Assembly (NCBI RefSeq): GCF_001938945.1
Contig: NZ_MKIO01000024.1
Span: 186,001-250,000 of the forward strand
Direction of reading: 5' to 3'
Source of the DNA: Xaviernesmea rhizosphaerae
GTDB taxonomy: Bacteria > Pseudomonadota > Alphaproteobacteria > Rhizobiales > Rhizobiaceae
DNA length: 64,000 bases
Part shown: positions 1,984 to 13,930 of the stretch, in pieces
How positions within the stretch are numbered: position 1 is the first letter of the stretch
Layout of the letters: the number at the start of each line of letters is the position of its first letter
Position numbers and translations under genes: made by a program
Notes under the pieces: generated by a model
Databases searched by the model: none
The model's input: the letters and a program-made list of their open reading frames with translations, nothing else
Told to the model about the DNA's origin: nothing

Positions 1984-4236
1984 TCACGGCCCTGATCGCG
2001 CTTGCGGCCCTGATCCCGCTTGCGGCAAAGCCTGATCCATATCGCCCTTCTGCAGGAAGACCCGCACGCTGGCCGCGCGGCCGGCGGCGTCGATGACGGT
2101 CAGCGTCGAAAAGCCAAGCCCGTCCGGCTGCCATTGGCTCACGCGCCGCAGGCTCGGCTCGGCCATCGGCCGGCCATTGGCGAGCCAGCGGAACGGCGCC
2201 CGCCCGCCCTGCAGCTTCAGCGTCAACGGCTCGAGACCGCCTTCGGCGGCGGTTTCGCTTTCGATTTCGCCCCCGTCTTCACCACTGCCGAGATCCACGC
2301 GCGCGCCATCGGGCGGATAGACGATGCGCGGGGCTGGGTCTGCCGGCCGGCGTGACAGCGCGGCCAGGCCCTGCTGATCGGCCGTGAAGCGGCGCAGCGC
2401 CGCCGGCAGGTCGGCGGGCGCAAGCCGCCGGGCGCCGGTGGGCGGCCGGGGCAGGGGAACGCTGGCCAGCCCCGAACGGGCGAAGGCCTCGAACAGGATC
2501 GGCGCGGCGGTGGCATAGCCGCTGATGGCGGGCACGGCGCCATTGTCGGCGCGGCCCACCCAGACCCCCAGCACATAGCGTCCGTCAAAGCCCACCGACC
2601 AGGCATCGCGGTAACCGTAGCTGGTGCCGGTCTTGTAGGCGAGCACGCGCCGGGCGCTGCCCTGCGGCGGCAGCACGCCGGAGAGAATATCGGCCACCTG
2701 CCAGCTGGCGGCCGGATCGAGCAGCGGCGCGGCCTCTTCCTGCGCGGGCTGCCGGTCCACGCCGTTTCCGAGCGTCACCGGCGCGCCGCGCCGCGCGAGC
2801 GCGGCATAGAGCTGGACCAGATCGCGCAGGCTGATGCCGAGGCCGCCAAGGCCGATCGCCAGCCCCGGCGGCGCGCCCTTCGGCAGCTCCACCGTCACGC
2901 CGGCCCGGCGAAACCGCACGATCAGCCGGCTCGGGCCGACCGCATCCAGGAGACGTACGGCCGGCACGTTCAGGGACAGTTGCAGCGCTTGGCGGATCGT
3001 CACGTCGCCCTGATAGCTCATGTCGAAATTGCGGGGCCGGTAGCCGAAGAAATCGGCCGGCCGGTCCTCGATCAGCGTCTCCTGCGCGATCAGCCCCTCC
3101 TCAAAGGCGAGGCCATAGATGAAGGGCTTGAGCGTAGAGCCGGGCGAGCGCGGCACGCGCGTCATGTCGACGAAGCCGCGTCGCGCCCGGTCGGTGAAAT
3201 CGGCTGAGCCGACCTCGGCCAGGATGGCGCCGGTCTGCGCATCCGCCAGCATCAGGGCCAGCGAGACCTGCGGATCGAGCCGTGCGGCGGCCGTGCGCGC
3301 CACCTCTTCCAGCGCGCTCTGGCGGTCGCGGTCGAGCGTGGTCGGCGTGCGCTCGGCAAGCGGCCCCTTGCGCCGCGCGGCTTCGGCCACATGCGGGGCC
3401 AGCGCCGGCAGGTCCGTGCGTCTGACTGGCACCGGCTCCAGCCCGGCGCGCTCGGCCTCGCCCGCGCCGATCAGCCGGCCGACGGCGAGGCGCGCGAGCA
3501 CGCGGGCGCGCGCGGCCTCGGCGGCCTGGGGGTGGCGGTCCGGCCGGCGGTGCTCCGGCAATTGCGGCAGGGCGACCAGCAACGCAGCCTGCGCCGTCGT
3601 CAGCCGGCGCGGCTCCTTGCCGAAATAGGCGAGGCTCGCCGCCCGCACGCCTTCGAGATTGCCGCCATAGGGCGCATGGGTAAGGTAGAGATCGAGGATC
3701 TCGGCCTTTGTCAGCCGGCGCTCGATCTGAAAGGCACGCGCGATCTGGCGCAGCTTGGCCGTCAGAGAGCGGTTCTCGCGCGGCTCGATCAGCCGGGCGA
3801 GCTGCATTGAGAGGGTGGATGCGCCCGAGACGATGCGGCCATGCATGAGAAACTGGCCCGCCGCGCGGGCGAGCGCCACCGGATCGATGCCGGGATGGTG
3901 GAGGAAGCGCTGGTCCTCATAGGCGATCAGCATGCGGGTGAATTGCGGATCGACATCTCCCGCGGCGGTTTTGAGCCGCATATGCCCCTCCGGCGTGGCG
4001 AAGGCGCGCAGCAGCCGGCCGTCCCGGTCGAGGATCTCTGCCGAGACGGTCATGGCGCCAGCCAAAGGCGGCGGAAAGGCACGGTCAGCGGCATCGAGCC
4101 CGATGGCGAGCAAAGCCAGCCCGGCGACAAGGCCGCAGCCCACCCAGCCCAGCCGCCTGAGCCGGCGCCTGGCGGGAGGCCGGGCCTCCTGCTCCCGGGC
4201 TTCTTGCTCCTCGGGCGGATGCACTGATACGTTCAC
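1984..4236 (-). CDS. pbpC: Penicillin-binding protein 1C (bifunctional transglycosylase/transpeptidase)
   Basis: Inner-membrane peptidoglycan synthase of 750 residues. A basic N-terminus precedes one membrane anchor at about residues 31-48. The family 51 glycosyltransferase domain carries EDQRF with catalytic Glu107, then GASTLSMQLAR and the KAEILDLYL segment. The transpeptidase domain has the SxxK motif STLK at Ser367, an SLN motif further on, and KTG at Lys535. The C-terminal region looks like the PBP1C-specific domain (BiPBP_C). The start overlaps the stop of the upstream macroglobulin gene by 4 bases (ATGA), so the two are translationally coupled. This pairing is conserved in many Gram-negatives (pbpC-yfhM in E. 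coli) and suggests periplasmic defence plus wall repair. Confidence 0.95.
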   Translation of the reverse strand: MNVSVHPPEEQEAREQEARPPARRRLRRLGWVGCGLVAGLALLAIGLDAADRAFPPPLAGAMTVSAEILDRDGRLLRAFATPEGHMRLKTAAGDVDPQFTRMLIAYEDQRFLHHPGIDPVALARAAGQFLMHGRIVSGASTLSMQLARLIEPRENRSLTAKLRQIARAFQIERRLTKAEILDLYLTHAPYGGNLEGVRAASLAYFGKEPRRLTTAQAALLVALPQLPEHRRPDRHPQAAEAARARVLARLAVGRLIGAGEAERAGLEPVPVRRTDLPALAPHVAEAARRKGPLAERTPTTLDRDRQSALEEVARTAAARLDPQVSLALMLADAQTGAILAEVGSADFTDRARRGFVDMTRVPRSPGSTLKPFIYGLAFEEGLIAQETLIEDRPADFFGYRPRNFDMSYQGDVTIRQALQLSLNVPAVRLLDAVGPSRLIVRFRRAGVTVELPKGAPPGLAIGLGGLGISLRDLVQLYAALARRGAPVTLGNGVDRQPAQEEAAPLLDPAASWQVADILSGVLPPQGSARRVLAYKTGTSYGYRDAWSVGFDGRYVLGVWVGRADNGAVPAISGYATAAPILFEAFARSGLASVPLPRPPTGARRLAPADLPAALRRFTADQQGLAALSRRPADPAPRIVYPPDGARVDLGSGEDGGEIESETAAEGGLEPLTLKLQGGRAPFRWLANGRPMAEPSLRRVSQWQPDGLGFSTLTVIDAAGRAASVRVFLQKGDMDQALPQAGSGPQARSGP

Positions 4237-7200
4237 GGCGCGGAGGAGACCGTCATCCGGCCGCCGGCGGTGCGGGCCGAAAATTGCGGCCGGTACATGT
4301 CTTCCACCTGAGCGGCCGGCTGTTCATAGGTGCCCGGCGTAACCGCGCGCACGACATAGGCCACCGAATAGCTGCCCGCCTCGCCCTGCTGCCGGTCGAA
4401 GGCGGCGACGAAGCGGTCGTTGCGGAATTCGGCATGAGCGGGCTCCACCGCGTCGATCCAGTCGAAATTCGCCAGCCTGGCGCTATCCACCAGGCTTGGA
4501 TTGTCGATCTCGAAGCCGCCGGGCAGGAGATCGGTCAGGATCACCCGGGCCGGCCAGGGATTGTCCTGCTGCACCGTCAGCACCACGACGAAGCGCTCGT
4601 TCTGCCTAGCATCGGAGATGTTCGCCTCGGTGCCGTCGAGCCGGTAATAGGCGCGGCTGAGCGCGAAGCCATTGCCGCCGGCGGGCAGCGGAAAGGCCGG
4701 GGCGGCCAGCGTGGTGACCGTCGCGGTCACCGGATCGCTGCCCCTATTGGCAATCGTTACCGGTGCGGCCAGGATCTCCTCGCCGCTCCTGCGGGTGGAG
4801 AAGGGTCCCTGCCGGGCGGCACCATCCACTGTCAGACGAATGCCGCTGTCGCCCTTGTCAATGGCGCGGGCGGCGAGCAGCAGCCACATCTGCTCCTGGG
4901 TGCTGGTGAGCGTCTTCGCCGCCGCCTGCCGTTCCACCTCGTGCGCCATCACAGGCAGGATCTTCGCCACAGGACGGCTTTCCGCCGCCAGCGTCAGCAC
5001 GGCGGCATCGTCTCGCAGGGCCGAGCCGTAATCGCCCCGGTCGAGATCGGCGACGTCAGGCGCGGTCGCAGCTGCTTGCGCATCCAGAAACAGGCTGTCG
5101 GCCCTGGCCTGATCGCCATAGAGCGACAGGGCGGCCGCCAGATGCGCCTTGGCGAGCGGCGTCTTGAAATCGGCGAGCTTCGTATCGGCATAATAGCGCA
5201 GATCGGAGATCGAGGCCTTGCGGTTGCGCGCCAGCACATAGAGCGCATAGGCCACCTCGTTGCCGCGCGTGCCGATCTCGCTGTCATAGGCCAGCGCGTT
5301 CTGGAGATTGTCCAGCGCCAGACGCATGGCGGTATCGGGCACGGCCAGATCCTTCTCCCGCGCCCGCGTCAGGAAATCGCTGACATAGGCGTCGAGCCAG
5401 AGATCGCCGGAGCCGGGGCTCCACAGGCCGAAGCTGCCGGCCGAGGACTGATAGGAGAGAACCCGCTCGATCGCGCCTTTCACCCGCGCGGAGGCATCGG
5501 GATCCGCCGGCAGGCCGGCCCGGCCGGTCAGCTCGCTTAGATAGAGCAGCGGCAGCGCCCGGCTGGTGGTCTGTTCGGCGCATCCATAGGGGTAGCGGTC
5601 GAGCATCATCAGCAGAGCGGGAATGTCGAGGGCGGCGCTGCGGGCGACGCTCAGGCTGACAGCGGCGCCATCCAGCCGGCTTTCTGCCAGAAGACCGGAA
5701 TCGACGGTCAGGCTCTCGCCGGGCTTCAGCTCCACCGGCAAATGGGTGGTGACCGGCATGGCCGCGCCGCGCACGGGCAGGGTCACGAGCTGGTCGAGCC
5801 GGGTGCCGTCGGCAAGTTCCGCGGCAATGGTAATCCGGCCTTCGCCAATGGCAGCGCCCGACAGCGGCAGGTTGACGCTGATGCGGCCGTTCTGTGGGAT
5901 CGGCAGAGGGGCGGCCAGCCGGTCGGTGCCGACCTTCACCGCGTCGTTGGTGGTGATGGCGAGCCGCACCTGTGTCGCCGCCGCATCGGTGTTGGCGAGA
6001 TCCAGCCGCAATTGCGACTGGTCTCCGGGCGCCAGAACGCGCGGGCTGCTGGCGGTGACGACGAGGGGATCGCGGATCACCACGTCCCTCTCGGCATGGC
6101 CGACGCCTTGCCTGGTCCAGGCCACCGCCATGATCCGCGCGGTGCCGTTGAACTGCGGAATGTCGAAGCTGACCGTGGCGCGGCCCGCATCGTCCAGCCG
6201 CACGGGGCCGGAGAAGAAGGCGACGAGTTTTTCCGTCGGCGGATTGCCCTGGAGCGCCACTTGTCCGCCATCGCCGCCGGTGCGCAGGCGCCCCAGCGCA
6301 CCGAGCGAGCCATCGATCAGCTTGCCATAGAGATCGCGCAGCTCCAGGCCCAGCCGGCGCTGGCCGAAATACCAGCCGTCGGGATCAGGTGTGGGATAGC
6401 GCGTGAGATTGAGAATGCCGACATCGACGGCGGCGACCATGACATAGGCCTCCTCGCCGGCGGCAAGGCCGGACAGCGCGACCGGAATGGCGAGCGGCTG
6501 GCGCGGCCGCGTCTTTTCCGGCAGGTCGAGCGTCAGCGCGAGCTTGCGCGCTTCAGGATCGACGCCGGCCCAGGCGATGCCGATGGCACGCATCGGCATG
6601 CGGCTTTCCTGCGCCTCGCCGGGGCGAAACAGCGTGGCGGTGACATAGGCGCCGGCGCCGAAGGCTTGTGTCACGGGAATGTCCACCACCGTGCCGCCGG
6701 CGGGAACATCGGCCTCGTAAGTTGCAACAAGGCTTTCCGAGCCAATGGTGACCAGCGCCTTGCCGGCAAAGCGCGGGGAGATCTTGAGCTTCGCCGTTTC
6801 GCCCAGCCGGTAGAGCGGCTTGTCGAGCGCGATTTCCAGCGCATCCGGCGTCTCTGTCGAGCTCGCGGCGACATAGAAGCCGGCATCGAATTCGACGCTG
6901 GAGGCGGTGCCGCCGACCTTGTCCTCCACCTCGAGCCTGTAACGGCCCCAGCCGACGGGCGCCGTAATGCGCCCACCTTCGGGCGTCACGTCCAGCCGGC
7001 CATCGGCGACCTGGCGCGTGGAGATCACGGGCTCATAGCCCCAGGAATCCCCCTGGCGATACCATTGATAGCGCCGCTCGACCGCGATCAGCTTCCAGGA
7101 AAGGCCCGCCTTCGCCGCTGCCTTGCCGTTCTCATCCAGCGCCAGAACCTGGAAGCCGGCCGTGCCGCCTTCCCTGACATCGCCGGTGAACTCCGGCTTG

Positions 7201-9701
7201 ATGCCGATGGCGGCGCGTTGATCTGATATCGGCAGGGTCAGCGTGCGCTCCACCGCCCGGCCGCCGCTTTCCTGCAGGCGCACGGCCAGATGTGCCTCCA
7301 GCCGGCGCGTGGTCGAGGGCATATCGCCCAGCGTCACGGCAAAGCGCGCCTTGCCGTCGGCATCGAGCGGCGGCAGGTTTTCCAGCGGGATGCGCAGGTC
7401 CTCGCCGGCTTCCTCATCCGCCAGGCCGAACTGGTAGCCGGGATGGGCGGGATCGCTGCGCACCGGCTTGACCAGAACCTCGCCTTCCAGCGCCAGGCCG
7501 GCGGCCGGGGCGCCATAGAGGAAGCGGCCGTTAACGTCGATCTCGGCCGGCGTTCCCGGAACGAGCCGGTCCGCGGCACTGGTCATGTCGAAGGTGATGC
7601 GGTCGGGGACGAAATCATCGACCAGGAAGCTCTGTTCGCTAAGCGGCTTGCCCTTGGGGTCGGTGAAGATCTGCAGGGTCCAGCGCCCGCGCATGGCATT
7701 GTCCTGCAGCGCCAGATCCACGGCATAGCCGCCGAGCTTCGGCGCGGTGGCGACCATGCGCTGATCCTCCACGCCATCCGGGCGCAGGAAGACGAAGGTC
7801 AGCGGCAGCCCATCGAGTGCCTCGGCCCGCTCGTTGCGGGCAAGCGCTGCGGCATGCACCGTCTCGCCTGTGCGGTAGATGCCACGCTCGGTATAGGCGA
7901 AGAGGTCGATGGCGCCCGGCGCAGGCCGGCCGGTCACGCCCCGGTCCGACAGGTCGAAGCCGGCGCGGGTCATGTCGAGGAAGACGTAATCGCCCGAATC
8001 CGTCGCAGCCGTGATCACTGCCGGGGCGAGCCCCGCCATGCCGCGCGAAAGCCCGGCATCGAACCGCGCCCGGCCCGTCGCATCCGTCCTGGCTGTCGCC
8101 AGAACCTCATTGTTGCGGGCGAGCAGCTGCAGGCTCACGCCCTCCATCGGCGTTGCAGTGGAGAGCGCCCGGGCGAAAACGGTGAGGCCATCCGTGCCGG
8201 TGAAGGTCGACAGGCCGATATCGGAAATGACGAACCATTGGGTGGCGCGGCTGTCCCATTCGTTGGCCACGCCGAGGGTGGAGGCCGCCGTCATCACATA
8301 GACGCCCGGCTGACGCTTCGGCAGCGCCTCGTCGATCGGGATGCTGGTGATCACCTCCTTGTTGAGGTCGCTGGCGATCTCCACCGTGCCCTGCCAGACA
8401 AGCGCGCCGCTCTCCTCCGAGATCCGGTCGGCGGTATAGCCGCTGAGTTGGGTCAGGAACTGCGAATTGGCCATCAGCCCGGCAATGTTGCGCTCGCCGA
8501 TGCGATAGAGCTTCAGGGACGCGCTCGGGGTGTTGACCGAGACGAGCGGCAGGCCGCGGCGCATGGTCGAGGGCAGGACGAAGTTCTCGCCGGTGAAGCG
8601 CACCTGGGCGGTGCGGTCGCGAATATAGAGATCGAGATTGACGTCGGCGGCAAGGGGCTCATCGACGGAAGAGGGCAGGCCCTTGCGCAAGGTCAGGGCA
8701 TAGCGCTCGCCATGAACGAGGCCTTCCACGCAGATCTGCTGATCCTTCGCCTCCATGGCCTGCGGCGTCTGGCCGTTCAGCAACACATAGGGCTGGTAGT
8801 CGAAGGCCTTGACCAGGGGCTCGGAGACCTGGACGCAGGCTCGGGGTGTGGCGCTGTCGGAATCGATCGTATGTTCCACCACGCGGAAGCCATCCGTGGC
8901 GCGCAGGGCGTCATAGGCGCTGCGCACCGCCTTGCTGTCGGCGAGCGCAAGGCTCGCCTTATAGGCGTTCAGCGCCGGTCGCGGGCTGCCGGTGGCCTTC
9001 AGGCTTTCGGCCAGGCCCGCCAATGCGGCCGCGCGGGTGCGGCTGGTGCGCGAAAGCTCATAGGCATTGATGGCCGAAAGCAGGCCCTGGCGCTGCAGCT
9101 CGGCATTGTCGGTGATGCGCAGGGCGTAGCGTGCGGCCTGCAGCCAGAGCGCGCCATCCTCCGGCTGGATGCCGACCGCGCCGGCTGCCAGCCGCAGCGC
9201 TTCCGCCGCATTGCCTGCATCCGCCTGCCTGCGCGCGGCGGCGACCAGCGCGTTCAGCCCCTCGCCCTTCAGCTCCTCCGGCAGGGCGGCGGCCCGCTTC
9301 AGCCGGCGCGCTTCGGCCAGCGTCGCCGCGTCGAGGAAGGGCAGGGCCGCCGGCGCGCCGAGATCGATCTCCTTCTGCCGCTTGTCCACCATGCGGCCGG
9401 CCACGGCGCCGGGAAAGTCGTTGAGCGTGTCATAGTCCGACTTGAGGAAGCACCATTTCGCCTTGGGATTATAGGTAAAGGCCCGGCAGGCCTTGTCGCC
9501 GGCGCAGATTTCGCCGCAGGCCTTCAAGGTGACGTTCTGTTCGGTGCGCAGGTCGAAGCCGAAATAATCGGCGTTTTCGGTCAGTACTGGCTGACGGTCG
9601 GGCTCGGCGGCGCGGGCCGGCACCAGGGCTGCGGTCATCAGCAGGCAGACCATCAGCAGCGGCAGGCAGAGGCGGTTCCACAGGGAGCGGAGGATGGGCA
9701 T
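4233..9701 (-). CDS. Alpha-2-macroglobulin family protein with N-terminal PAN/Apple-like domain
   Basis: Large periplasmic protease trap of about 1822 residues. I chose the ATG at 9701 because it puts a clean signal peptide at the N-terminus (basic MPILRSLWNR, hydrophobic core, cleavage near ARA-AEP); an in-frame ATG at 9773 adds 24 residues before it. After the signal comes a cysteine-rich PAN/Apple-like segment (cysteines in KACGEICAGDKACRAF and KWCFL), then the macroglobulin domains. The thioester motif CAEQ lies near bases 5572-5581, within YPYGCAEQTTSR, so covalent trapping should be possible. No lipobox is seen, unlike E. coli YfhM, which is a lipoprotein. It is upstream of and coupled to pbpC. 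Confidence 0.93.
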   Translation of the reverse strand: MPILRSLWNRLCLPLLMVCLLMTAALVPARAAEPDRQPVLTENADYFGFDLRTEQNVTLKACGEICAGDKACRAFTYNPKAKWCFLKSDYDTLNDFPGAVAGRMVDKRQKEIDLGAPAALPFLDAATLAEARRLKRAAALPEELKGEGLNALVAAARRQADAGNAAEALRLAAGAVGIQPEDGALWLQAARYALRITDNAELQRQGLLSAINAYELSRTSRTRAAALAGLAESLKATGSPRPALNAYKASLALADSKAVRSAYDALRATDGFRVVEHTIDSDSATPRACVQVSEPLVKAFDYQPYVLLNGQTPQAMEAKDQQICVEGLVHGERYALTLRKGLPSSVDEPLAADVNLDLYIRDRTAQVRFTGENFVLPSTMRRGLPLVSVNTPSASLKLYRIGERNIAGLMANSQFLTQLSGYTADRISEESGALVWQGTVEIASDLNKEVITSIPIDEALPKRQPGVYVMTAASTLGVANEWDSRATQWFVISDIGLSTFTGTDGLTVFARALSTATPMEGVSLQLLARNNEVLATARTDATGRARFDAGLSRGMAGLAPAVITAATDSGDYVFLDMTRAGFDLSDRGVTGRPAPGAIDLFAYTERGIYRTGETVHAAALARNERAEALDGLPLTFVFLRPDGVEDQRMVATAPKLGGYAVDLALQDNAMRGRWTLQIFTDPKGKPLSEQSFLVDDFVPDRITFDMTSAADRLVPGTPAEIDVNGRFLYGAPAAGLALEGEVLVKPVRSDPAHPGYQFGLADEEAGEDLRIPLENLPPLDADGKARFAVTLGDMPSTTRRLEAHLAVRLQESGGRAVERTLTLPISDQRAAIGIKPEFTGDVREGGTAGFQVLALDENGKAAAKAGLSWKLIAVERRYQWYRQGDSWGYEPVISTRQVADGRLDVTPEGGRITAPVGWGRYRLEVEDKVGGTASSVEFDAGFYVAASSTETPDALEIALDKPLYRLGETAKLKISPRFAGKALVTIGSESLVATYEADVPAGGTVVDIPVTQAFGAGAYVTATLFRPGEAQESRMPMRAIGIAWAGVDPEARKLALTLDLPEKTRPRQPLAIPVALSGLAAGEEAYVMVAAVDVGILNLTRYPTPDPDGWYFGQRRLGLELRDLYGKLIDGSLGALGRLRTGGDGGQVALQGNPPTEKLVAFFSGPVRLDDAGRATVSFDIPQFNGTARIMAVAWTRQGVGHAERDVVIRDPLVVTASSPRVLAPGDQSQLRLDLANTDAAATQVRLAITTNDAVKVGTDRLAAPLPIPQNGRISVNLPLSGAAIGEGRITIAAELADGTRLDQLVTLPVRGAAMPVTTHLPVELKPGESLTVDSGLLAESRLDGAAVSLSVARSAALDIPALLMMLDRYPYGCAEQTTSRALPLLYLSELTGRAGLPADPDASARVKGAIERVLSYQSSAGSFGLWSPGSGDLWLDAYVSDFLTRAREKDLAVPDTAMRLALDNLQNALAYDSEIGTRGNEVAYALYVLARNRKASISDLRYYADTKLADFKTPLAKAHLAAALSLYGDQARADSLFLDAQAAATAPDVADLDRGDYGSALRDDAAVLTLAAESRPVAKILPVMAHEVERQAAAKTLTSTQEQMWLLLAARAIDKGDSGIRLTVDGAARQGPFSTRRSGEEILAAPVTIANRGSDPVTATVTTLAAPAFPLPAGGNGFALSRAYYRLDGTEANISDARQNERFVVVLTVQQDNPWPARVILTDLLPGGFEIDNPSLVDSARLANFDWIDAVEPAHAEFRNDRFVAAFDRQQGEAGSYSVAYVVRAVTPGTYEQPAAQVEDMYRPQFSARTAGGRMTVSSAP

Positions 9702-9800
9702 GCGTCTTGTGTAAAGCCGCCGGCCGGCCAAGGTTTCGGCGCGCGCAATGGCAGCGGTGATGCTGGACGGCATGGCGGTGGTCCTCTCCCGACCCTTTGA

Positions 9801-12070: not shown

Positions 12071-12937
12071 TTACATCGAGGTCAGTGCCGTCATCGGTGC
12101 CTGGGCAACCAGCGCTGCCTTGAGCTTCTCCATGGCGCGGGTCTCGATCTGACGGACGCGCTCCTTGGAAATACCGAGATCCACGCCGAGCTCTTCCAGC
12201 GTCGCGCTCTCGTCCGTCAGGCGGCGCGCACGGATGATCTTCATCTCGCGCTCGTTCAGCTGCTTCAGCGCATGGCCGAGCCAGGTCCGGCGGCGTTCCT
12301 GGTCGATCATGTCGGAGACCTGCTCGTCGGGGAGCGGTGCGGCGCAGGCGAGGAGGTCGAGGCGCTCGCCACCATCCGCGTCGCCGGCGGAAATCGGCGC
12401 CTGCAGCGAGGTGTCGCTGCTGGACAGGCGGGCATCCATGGTCTGGACGTCGGCCAGGCTGACGCCGAGTGCCGCGGCGATTTCCTCATGCACGGCGCGG
12501 GCCGTCAGCTGCCGGTCGCCCTGAGCAAGCTTGGCGCGCAGCCGGCGCAGATTGAAGAACAGCGCCTTCTGCGCCGAGCTGGTGCCGCCACGCACGATGG
12601 ACCAGTTGCGCAGGACGTAATCCTGCATCGAGGCGCGGATCCACCAGGTGGCGTAGGTGGAGAAGCGCACGTCGCGGCTCGGCTCGAAGCGGGCGGCGGC
12701 TTCGAGAAGGCCAATATGCCCTTCCTGGACCAGGTCGCTCATCGGCAGGCCGAAATGACGGAACTTCGCAGCCATGGAAATCACCAGGCGCATATGCGCC
12801 ATGGCGATCTTGTTGCGGGCGTTCTGGTCGTTATTGTCCTTCCACGCTTGCGCCAGTTCCTGCTCCTCCTGACGTTCCAGATAGGGGGCCGCCATGGCGA
12901 TCTTGATCATGCGACGATCTGCAGAAAGGGTCTTCAT
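12071..12937 (-). CDS. rpoH2: RNA polymerase sigma-32 factor, RpoH2 type
   Basis: Alternative sigma factor of 288 residues. Region 2 is intact (RLVISMAAKFR, DLVQEGHIGLLEAA, FSTYATWWIRASMQDYVLRNW), and the sigma-32-specific RpoH box is QKALFFNLR at residues 123-131. Region 4.2 has the helix-turn-helix LEELGVDLGISKERVRQIE near the C-terminus. Rhizobia carry two or more rpoH genes; this one resembles RpoH2, which acts in general and oxidative stress rather than classical heat shock. An exact EcfG-type promoter lies upstream at 13156-13180, consistent with known RpoE2 control of rpoH2 in Sinorhizobium meliloti. The call of RpoH2 rather than RpoH1 is from sequence feel plus the promoter. Confidence 0.9.
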   Translation of the reverse strand: MKTLSADRRMIKIAMAAPYLERQEEQELAQAWKDNNDQNARNKIAMAHMRLVISMAAKFRHFGLPMSDLVQEGHIGLLEAAARFEPSRDVRFSTYATWWIRASMQDYVLRNWSIVRGGTSSAQKALFFNLRRLRAKLAQGDRQLTARAVHEEIAAALGVSLADVQTMDARLSSSDTSLQAPISAGDADGGERLDLLACAAPLPDEQVSDMIDQERRRTWLGHALKQLNEREMKIIRARRLTDESATLEELGVDLGISKERVRQIETRAMEKLKAALVAQAPMTALTSM

Positions 12938-13155
12938 GTGGCTTGCTCCATGACCGGACCCGCTGAAATGAGCGTCCTGTCTTTGGTTTCAGGAGATCCG
13001 GCGGCGCATCTGACGGCGTTTCCGGGTCCAGTGAAGTGGATCTTGACCTGCCTGCACGCCGCCCTAACTTCTCATCGAACAGGGATCGAAACGATCACCG
13101 GGTTCTGACATCAGCAGGCAATGGACGGTGTGCGCCGCACGTCTCACAGGGGGCA

Positions 13156-13180
13156 AACGCGCAAGTCCGGATTTTGTTCC
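13156..13180 (-). promoter_or_regulatory. EcfG/RpoE2-type promoter of rpoH2
   Basis: On the minus strand GGAAC (13180-13176), a 16-base spacer and CGTT (13159-13156) match the general-stress-response consensus GGAAC-N16/17-CGTT exactly. The next minus-strand gene is rpoH2, whose ATG is at 12937, implying a leader of about 210 bases. RpoE2 control of rpoH2 is established in S. meliloti. Confidence 0.75.
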
Positions 13181-13337
13181 GGCCCATGGCCACATTCTGT
13201 GGGAGGAGACGCGGTCAGGCGATCGCTTCCCATCGCTTTCAGGCGCCCATTCAGATTAGGGGAGCGGCCGGCCCCTTCTTCCTATCTGTGCTTTGGATGA
13301 GCTGTTTTCTCCCGACTTTTGCCGCTTGCCGGGCTGG

Positions 13338-13352
13338 TTAACTTTGCGTTAA
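13338..13352 (+). promoter_or_regulatory. CtrA-type box upstream of the GNAT gene
   Basis: TTAA-N7-TTAA (TTAACTTTGCGTTAA), the full consensus for the alphaproteobacterial cell-cycle regulator CtrA. It is also a perfect dyad, GGTTAAC-N5-GTTAACC. It lies about 72 bases before the ATG at 13424. A different dyad-binding factor is possible. Confidence 0.5.
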
Positions 13353-13423
13353 CCTCATGGCGTGCGCCGGCCATGATGTGCCGGCTGGCTCAATCCGTGT
13401 CCGAAAGCGGTGAGTACGGCGTC

Positions 13424-13930
13424 ATGAAGACACTTTCGATCGAGGTGCGGCCGGCAGAGCCGCAGGACGCTTCGGCGATTGCCGAGGTTCACCGCAGTGC
13501 CTGGATGCAGGCCTATGGCGGGCTCATTCCGCATATCCCGTTGATCCGCATGGTCGACCGCCGCAATGAAAGCTGGTGGCGCAAGGCGACGCGCGGACCG
13601 GCGACGCTCCTGGTGGTCGAGGTGGCCGGCGTGATTGCCGGCTATGCCACCATGGGCTTGAACCGGGCGCGCGCGCTTCCCCAGGAGGGGGAGGTCTACG
13701 AGATTTACTTCCGTCCCGAATATCAAGGTCTCGGCCTCGGCCGCATTCTCTTCGGCGAGGCGCGCAATCTGCTGCGCTCGCTCGGCTGCTCGGGCCTGGT
13801 GGTCTGGTGCCTGGAGGAATGCGACATCGCCACAAGCTTCTTCCGCAATGCCGGCGGGCAGGATGTCTGCGAAGGCATGGAGGATTTCGGCGACAAGCAT
13901 CTGAAGAAGATCGGCTACGTCTGGGCCTGA
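13424..13930 (+). CDS. GNAT family N-acetyltransferase
   Basis: A 168-residue acetyltransferase. I chose the ATG at 13424 because the homologous domain begins right after it (IEVRPAEPQDASAIAEVH); an in-frame start at 13319 adds 35 residues with no domain content. The acetyl-CoA-binding motif A is PEYQGLGLGRILFGEA, with the Q-x-x-G-x-G/A pyrophosphate loop. The sequence W(M)QAYGGLIP near the N-terminus is typical of GNATs annotated as acting on small molecules or protein N-termini. The acceptor is unknown. It is divergent from rpoH2 with a CtrA-type box at 13338-13352 in the shared region. Confidence 0.88.
   Translation: MKTLSIEVRPAEPQDASAIAEVHRSAWMQAYGGLIPHIPLIRMVDRRNESWWRKATRGPATLLVVEVAGVIAGYATMGLNRARALPQEGEVYEIYFRPEYQGLGLGRILFGEARNLLRSLGCSGLVVWCLEECDIATSFFRNAGGQDVCEGMEDFGDKHLKKIGYVWA

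Follow-up and report, generated by a model that had tools for sequence, protein, structure and literature searches.

The rpoH2 gene of Xaviernesmea rhizosphaerae raises the question of which sigma factor directs its transcription and whether the long leader in front of it holds further control. In the stretch of DNA analysed here (the window, 64,000 nucleotides or 64 kb), positions 13180..13156 of the minus strand read GGAAC-AAAATCCGGACTTGCG-CGTT, with an N16 spacer, and match GGAAC-N16-CGTT exactly. The site combines the GGAAC -35 box, the CGTT -10 box and the spacer of 16-17 nt by which promoters of the EcfG/RpoE2 (ECF15) type are recognized. Both the exact match and the position of rpoH2 as the next gene on that strand, as claimed in the original prediction, were confirmed from the sequence. 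The motif begins 243 nt upstream of the rpoH2 ATG. Since 218 nt separate the -10 box from the ATG, a start 5-10 nt below the box would give a leader of about 208-213 nt, and the earlier estimate of about 210 was right. The features of the locus are collected in Table 1.

Table 1. Features of the rpoH2 locus, in window coordinates.
Feature	Position	Strand	Evidence or remark
rpoH2, sigma-32 family, 288 aa	12071..12937	(-)	NF005693 481.8 bits, cut-off 315 (NCBIfam)
Shine-Dalgarno-like GGAG, 8 nt before ATG	12946..12949	(-)	invariant in 21-leader alignment
rpoH2 leader, predicted, about 208-213 nt	12938..13150	(-)	no RNA fold conserved among the window-type leaders
Promoter-like element on the opposite strand, CTTGAC-N13-GCCCTAACT, inside the rpoH2 leader	13042..13069	(+)	75/81 loci; 2/2000 shuffles
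Predicted rpoH2 transcription start	13146..13151	(-)	inferred from motif geometry, 5-10 nt downstream of -10
-10 element CGTT, EcfG-type promoter, spacer N16	13156..13159	(-)	CGTT in 68/80, CATT in 9/80 relatives (best 80 of 572)
-35 element GGAAC, EcfG-type promoter	13176..13180	(-)	exact motif; GGAAC in 77/80 relatives (best 80 of 572)
Divergent GNAT acetyltransferase gene	13424..13930	(+)	PF00583 42.7 bits; neighbour, no target of the EcfG site

The gene encodes a sigma-32 factor of the RpoH2 type. Its product exceeds the NF005693 cut-off and differs from the second RpoH that the genome encodes (C39:161661-162440), with which it shares 43% identity; against TIGR02392 (rpoH_proteo) it reaches 278, below the cut-off of 323.1. 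Just upstream of that other rpoH lies an RpoH-type promoter, CTTGAA-N16-CCTATCT (G000:C39:162598-162626), whose sequence suggests autoregulation of RpoH1.

For comparison we used the best 80 of the 572 matches returned by a scan with rpoH2, giving 81 loci with the window. The closest named relative among these 80 is Xaviernesmea oryzae CGMCC 1.7048 (L009), which is placed in the Rhizobiaceae and whose RpoH2 is 98% identical to that of the window. Another locus deposited as X. oryzae (L071) encodes an RpoH2 that is only 80% identical and lies beside a CarD gene, whereas the neighbour in L009 is a GNAT gene; given these differences in identity and neighbourhood, one of the two names may be wrong, and both are used here as deposited. 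Among the 81 loci, the upstream neighbour of rpoH2 is CarD in 60 and a divergent GNAT gene in 21, including the window. Upstream of the divergent GNAT gene, at 13337-13353, the sequence TTAA-N7-TTAAC reads both ways; within 700 nt of rpoH2 it occurs in 21/21 GNAT-type and 0/60 CarD-type loci, and going by the consensus we take it to be a CtrA-type site.

By itself, the motif string is not significant, either in the window or in the genome. Within the 64 kb of the window, GGAAC-N15..18-CGTT occurs twice where 1.24 matches are expected, and at least two arose in 35 of 100 shuffles; the other match (7533-7556, N15) lies within a large ORF (4233-9773). Genome-wide, the bare motif is as frequent as its reversed control (77 versus 79 matches), a lack of enrichment that would suit a coincidental match, with rpoH2 transcribed from another promoter. 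However, the motif keeps its position in front of rpoH2, which lifts the site above chance: GGAAC-N16/17-C[G/A]TT was found in 77 of the 80 relatives (best 80 of 572), at the same spacing and in leaders that are otherwise strongly divergent. The form with CGTT is present in 68 of these 80, while CATT serves as the -10 box in nine (Ensifer, Sinorhizobium and one further isolate). The remaining three have, by eye, a one-mismatch site at the same spot, namely TGAAC...CGTT in L053, GAAAC...CGTT in L054 and GGAAC-N16-CGTA in L057. In the 77 relatives the motif starts 129-451 nt upstream of the ATG. The spacer of the window site opens with AAAA, which it has in common only with L009, as compared to TTTT or CTTT in most relatives. 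A housekeeping-type promoter is also hard to place: a search of the window leader for such sites found no good one on the sense strand, the best scoring 8/12, a value reached in 53% of 200 shuffles. We consider coincidence highly improbable.

When the motif is extended by an AT-rich triplet (GGAAC-N-WWW-N12/13-CGTT), the genome contains 16 matches as compared to six for the reversed control. These include rpoH2 itself (L099) and nepR-ecfG (L111), and several fall within mechanically called ORFs, some of them perhaps spurious. A Pfam scan of one downstream protein at each of ten further sites (L007, L101, L105 and L110 left out) matched a family in eight and none in two. The families were DJ-1/PfpI, DUF3309, CsbD, PLD, Transgly_assoc and a receiver domain, together with DUF1192 and DUF883_C, both below the cut-off.

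The genome also encodes EcfG, NepR and PhyR. One cluster (L096, on C48) comprises phyR, whose product (PhyR_sigma2) joins a sigma-like to a receiver domain, nepR (55.2 bits against a cut-off of 25.7), ecfG and the gene for a histidine kinase of the HWE type; EcfG motifs in both orientations lie between phyR and nepR-ecfG. A second phyR-nepR pair is found at L097, and C30:192387 encodes another protein with 43% identity to EcfG, so that either of the two sigma factors may act at the site.

We interpret 13180..13156 as an EcfG (RpoE2, ECF15-type) promoter of rpoH2, with a probability of about 0.93 on the sequence evidence. In X. rhizosphaerae, EcfG very likely drives transcription from this site, with the predicted start and a partner switch. 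Under stress, phosphorylated PhyR would take NepR off EcfG, as PMC3616915 describes for the homologues of S. meliloti. Polymerase carrying EcfG would then start minus-strand transcription near 13146-13151, and the RpoH2 produced would form the second tier of a two-tier sigma cascade. The idea that EcfG acts through RpoH2 in a cascade, as in S. meliloti, thus finds support in the site, the gene, the conservation within the Rhizobiaceae and the phyR-nepR-ecfG genes of the genome. As RpoE2/EcfG is already known to control rpoH2 in both S. meliloti and R. etli, the link is a new instance of known regulation, and the promoter would extend the two-tier cascade to the Xaviernesmea group. The EcfG promoter might be joined by inputs from other ECF sigma factors, leaving the EcfG cascade as one route only. 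Overexpression of RpoE6 also raised rpoH2 in S. meliloti (PMC6180224, accessible text), and several ECF-like sigma genes are present in this genome, but under physiological conditions the accessible literature shows dependence on EcfG/RpoE2 only, and we regard such additional inputs as unlikely.

How far does the EcfG input extend? From an order-level sample of 120 genomes, including that of the window, we took the region in front of rpoH2 for each of the 56 matches outside the window's own genome (at least 59% identity). Within 600 nt upstream, the exact motif was present in 6/56 orthologues and a one-mismatch version in 11/56, with neither in 39/56. Two of the three same-family loci have the exact motif (L121 and L129) and L124 has one mismatch, while outside the family only 4 of the 53 sampled orthologues carry it exactly. 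A co-directional CarD-family gene lies upstream in 44/56. For the GGAAC/CGTT-type motif scanned, these counts suggest that EcfG control of rpoH2 arose for the most part within the Rhizobiaceae, where it was added to a CarD-rpoH2 arrangement of greater age. A survey of Rhizobiales reported sigma-24-type signals only for 80% of rpoH2 genes, mostly more than 200 nt upstream (PMC4843759, accessible text).

The original prediction further proposed that the leader could hold additional control. This part stood in the form of a conserved promoter-like element on the opposite strand, described below, but not in the form of RNA structure in the window's group. The alignment of the 21 window-type leaders gave no conserved fold (-4.1 kcal/mol, 0 covarying pairs). 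Rfam had no match in the window at gathering scores, none at 12900-13450 up to E = 1, and none near rpoH2 in five relatives, where one weak match (L017) lay elsewhere. An RNA thermometer or riboswitch in the window-group leader is rejected, given the absence of both an Rfam match and a conserved fold. A 15-codon uORF in the window (MSEPGDRFDPCSMRS) was also rejected, being absent from L009 by eye.

Leaders of other groups were analysed in the same way. The Ensifer alignment (21 of 22 leaders; L038 was left out for its long insert) contains one covarying pair of 31. In Rhizobium sensu stricto (28 leaders: L056, L058, L059, L061-L063, L065-L070, L072-L085, L087 and L088), 8 of 44 pairs covary, four of them in one hairpin. 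All 28 leaders have a 23-24-codon ORF behind a strong Shine-Dalgarno sequence, its stop either coinciding among them or shifted one codon downstream, and they show a strongly conserved GATGAGGAGCGGATCATG and, further downstream, a hairpin with compensatory changes. Selection on the encoded peptide is unsupported, because synonymous changes are not in excess and third codon positions vary least: among 26 distinct sequences, 576/2427 single-base codon differences are synonymous in frame 0, as compared to 685/2049 and 1044/2538 in the other two frames. The ORF and GATGAGGAGCGGATCATG are a candidate leader peptide or antisense-RNA seed.

In the middle of the leader, the blocks TAGGGCG and GTCAA are invariant in all 21 window-type loci. 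On the opposite strand, both together read CTTGAC-N13-GCCCTAnnT (the first base is G in L020 and L029). A scan for housekeeping-type promoters found CT[T/G]GA[C/A]-N13-GCCCTAnnT in 75/81 loci, as compared to 78/81 for the EcfG site. Six loci were judged to be without the element and were left out (L027, L052, L053, L054, L057 and L071); L053 scores 9 at a different place and was excluded from the count. Its distance to the ATG is 65-121 nt in these loci apart from L038, where the insert moves the element to 314 nt. In 75/75 loci the second and fourth bases of the -35 box (T and G) and the C, T, A and final T of the -10 box are unchanged, and the three C residues of CCCTA are each present in 72-75 of these loci. 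The scan chose N16 to CTA at every one of these loci, with 16-18 allowed. The fourth position of the presumed -10 box is variable (A22 C20 T18 G15 of 75).

Shuffled versions of the window leader reached the score of the element in 2 of 2000 cases. In a less-similar set of 25 of the 78 leaders, 22 score at least 9 on the opposite strand, although in 7 of the 22 between 4.5% and 11.5% of shuffles do as well, and L069 and L070 reach 9 on the sense strand too. These statistics ignore relatedness, but leaders from the different groups can otherwise hardly be aligned with one another. At the order level, 0/56 loci reach a score of 10. Within the family, L121 has the element with a score of 9, and L124 and L129 score 8. 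Seven other order-level loci score 9. Four of them, L146, L147 and L170 at 117-118 nt and L173 at 83 nt, show the N16 spacing and fall within the distance range of the element; by sequence, these four may equally be chance matches or distant homologues. The conservation of the element is real, and its function is putative.

The rhizobial housekeeping sigma-70 consensus is CTTGAC, N16-18, CTATAT. The window element agrees with it in 10 of 12 positions, with N16, and the conserved GCCC before TA falls outside this consensus. The RpoH consensus is given as CTTGAA or CTTGCC, N15-16, CCTATAT or CCTATCT (PMC4843759, accessible text); read as CTTGAC-N15-CCTAACT, the window element agrees with the RpoH2 form in 11 of 13 positions by eye, the base after CCTA being unconserved across loci. 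The element therefore fits an RpoH promoter about as well as a housekeeping one, and the free fourth position of CTAnnT fits neither.

On this evidence, the element looks like an antisense promoter of the RpoH or housekeeping type. It is possible, if tentative, that it is no promoter, and acts instead as an operator at which a DNA-binding protein controls rpoH2 or its neighbour. The variable fourth -10 position, unlike either consensus, would suit an operator, as would the rarity of the element form in the genome (2 matches versus 3 for the control), whereas TG, TA and the final T are fixed, their spacing is constant and CCC precedes TA, all as in promoters. A role as the sole promoter of the GNAT gene is unlikely, since 54/60 CarD-type loci have the element, with no GNAT gene found upstream, and the GNAT gene has its own TTAA-N7-TTAAC.

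If the element is an antisense promoter, it may serve as a brake on rpoH2 in the Rhizobiaceae: the RpoH-type (or housekeeping) promoter would fire against the direction of rpoH2, through the leader and over the EcfG promoter. We hold this proposal to be doubtful. Speculatively, RpoH1 or RpoH2 activity would give rise to antisense RNA or colliding polymerases, and rpoH2 would be limited in consequence. In 46/60 CarD-type loci a terminator that, by its sequence, reads both ways lies beyond the EcfG site, at most 40 nt away in 33 of the 46. There, element and terminator would delimit an antisense transcript 112-339 nt long (median 213) that spans the EcfG promoter and the first part of the leader. 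In the window's group, the antisense transcript would continue toward the divergent GNAT gene.

Antisense RNAs of the sigma-70 and sigma-H types opposite sigma-E2 genes are a reported class in S. meliloti (PMC3616915, accessible text). In an S. meliloti rpoH1 mutant, RpoH2 protein was higher late in heat shock, and the accessible text leaves the cause open (PMC5745026). An RpoH1-driven antisense brake could explain this increase, which is equally predicted by polymerase competition or greater stress. In the accessible literature we came across no description of such an antisense promoter within an rpoH2 leader. If the brake exists, it bears on how RpoH2 is limited and why RpoH2 rises without RpoH1.

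Three known systems resemble this locus, as described in the accessible text of the papers cited. In Rhodobacter sphaeroides (RpoE-RpoHII-StsR/UdsC), an ECF sigma factor drives a second RpoH and the network is damped by RNA (PMC8307010, PMC9779115), RpoE-RpoHII-StsR forming a negative loop made with an sRNA (PMC8307010). The likeness concerns only the speculative antisense reading of the rpoH2 leader: StsR acts on rpoE mRNA and UdsC binds the rpoHII 5' UTR, whereas a cis-antisense unit is proposed for the window. In R. etli, rpoH2 is driven by EcfG1 (RpoE4) (PMC3892343, PMC4167512), and genes under EcfG1 have GGAAC-N16-CGTT as their motif (PMC3892343), so that the window shares both consensus and target. 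However, in the Rhizobium sensu stricto loci, which do not include R. etli itself, site and ATG are 317-327 nt apart, as compared to 243 nt in the window, and their candidate uORF and hairpin were not found in the window leader.

The third system is S. meliloti, where rpoH2 is RpoE2-dependent, with a start mapped below a sigma-E2 promoter (PMC3616915), and RpoE2 is needed for its activation (PMC6180224). An rpoE2 rpoH1 mutant forms very few nodules, as does an rpoH1 rpoH2 mutant (PMC6180224). Control in S. meliloti is known from expression, and here it is predicted from the sequence; the upstream neighbour is a co-directional CarD-family gene there but a divergent GNAT gene in the window. The motif type and the target gene are shared, and the distance from site to ATG is similar (237 nt in S. 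meliloti 4H41 and 243 nt in the window). The doubled RsiA/RsiB set of S. meliloti (PMC3616915) is likewise resembled here by the two phyR-nepR pairs and the second EcfG-like protein.
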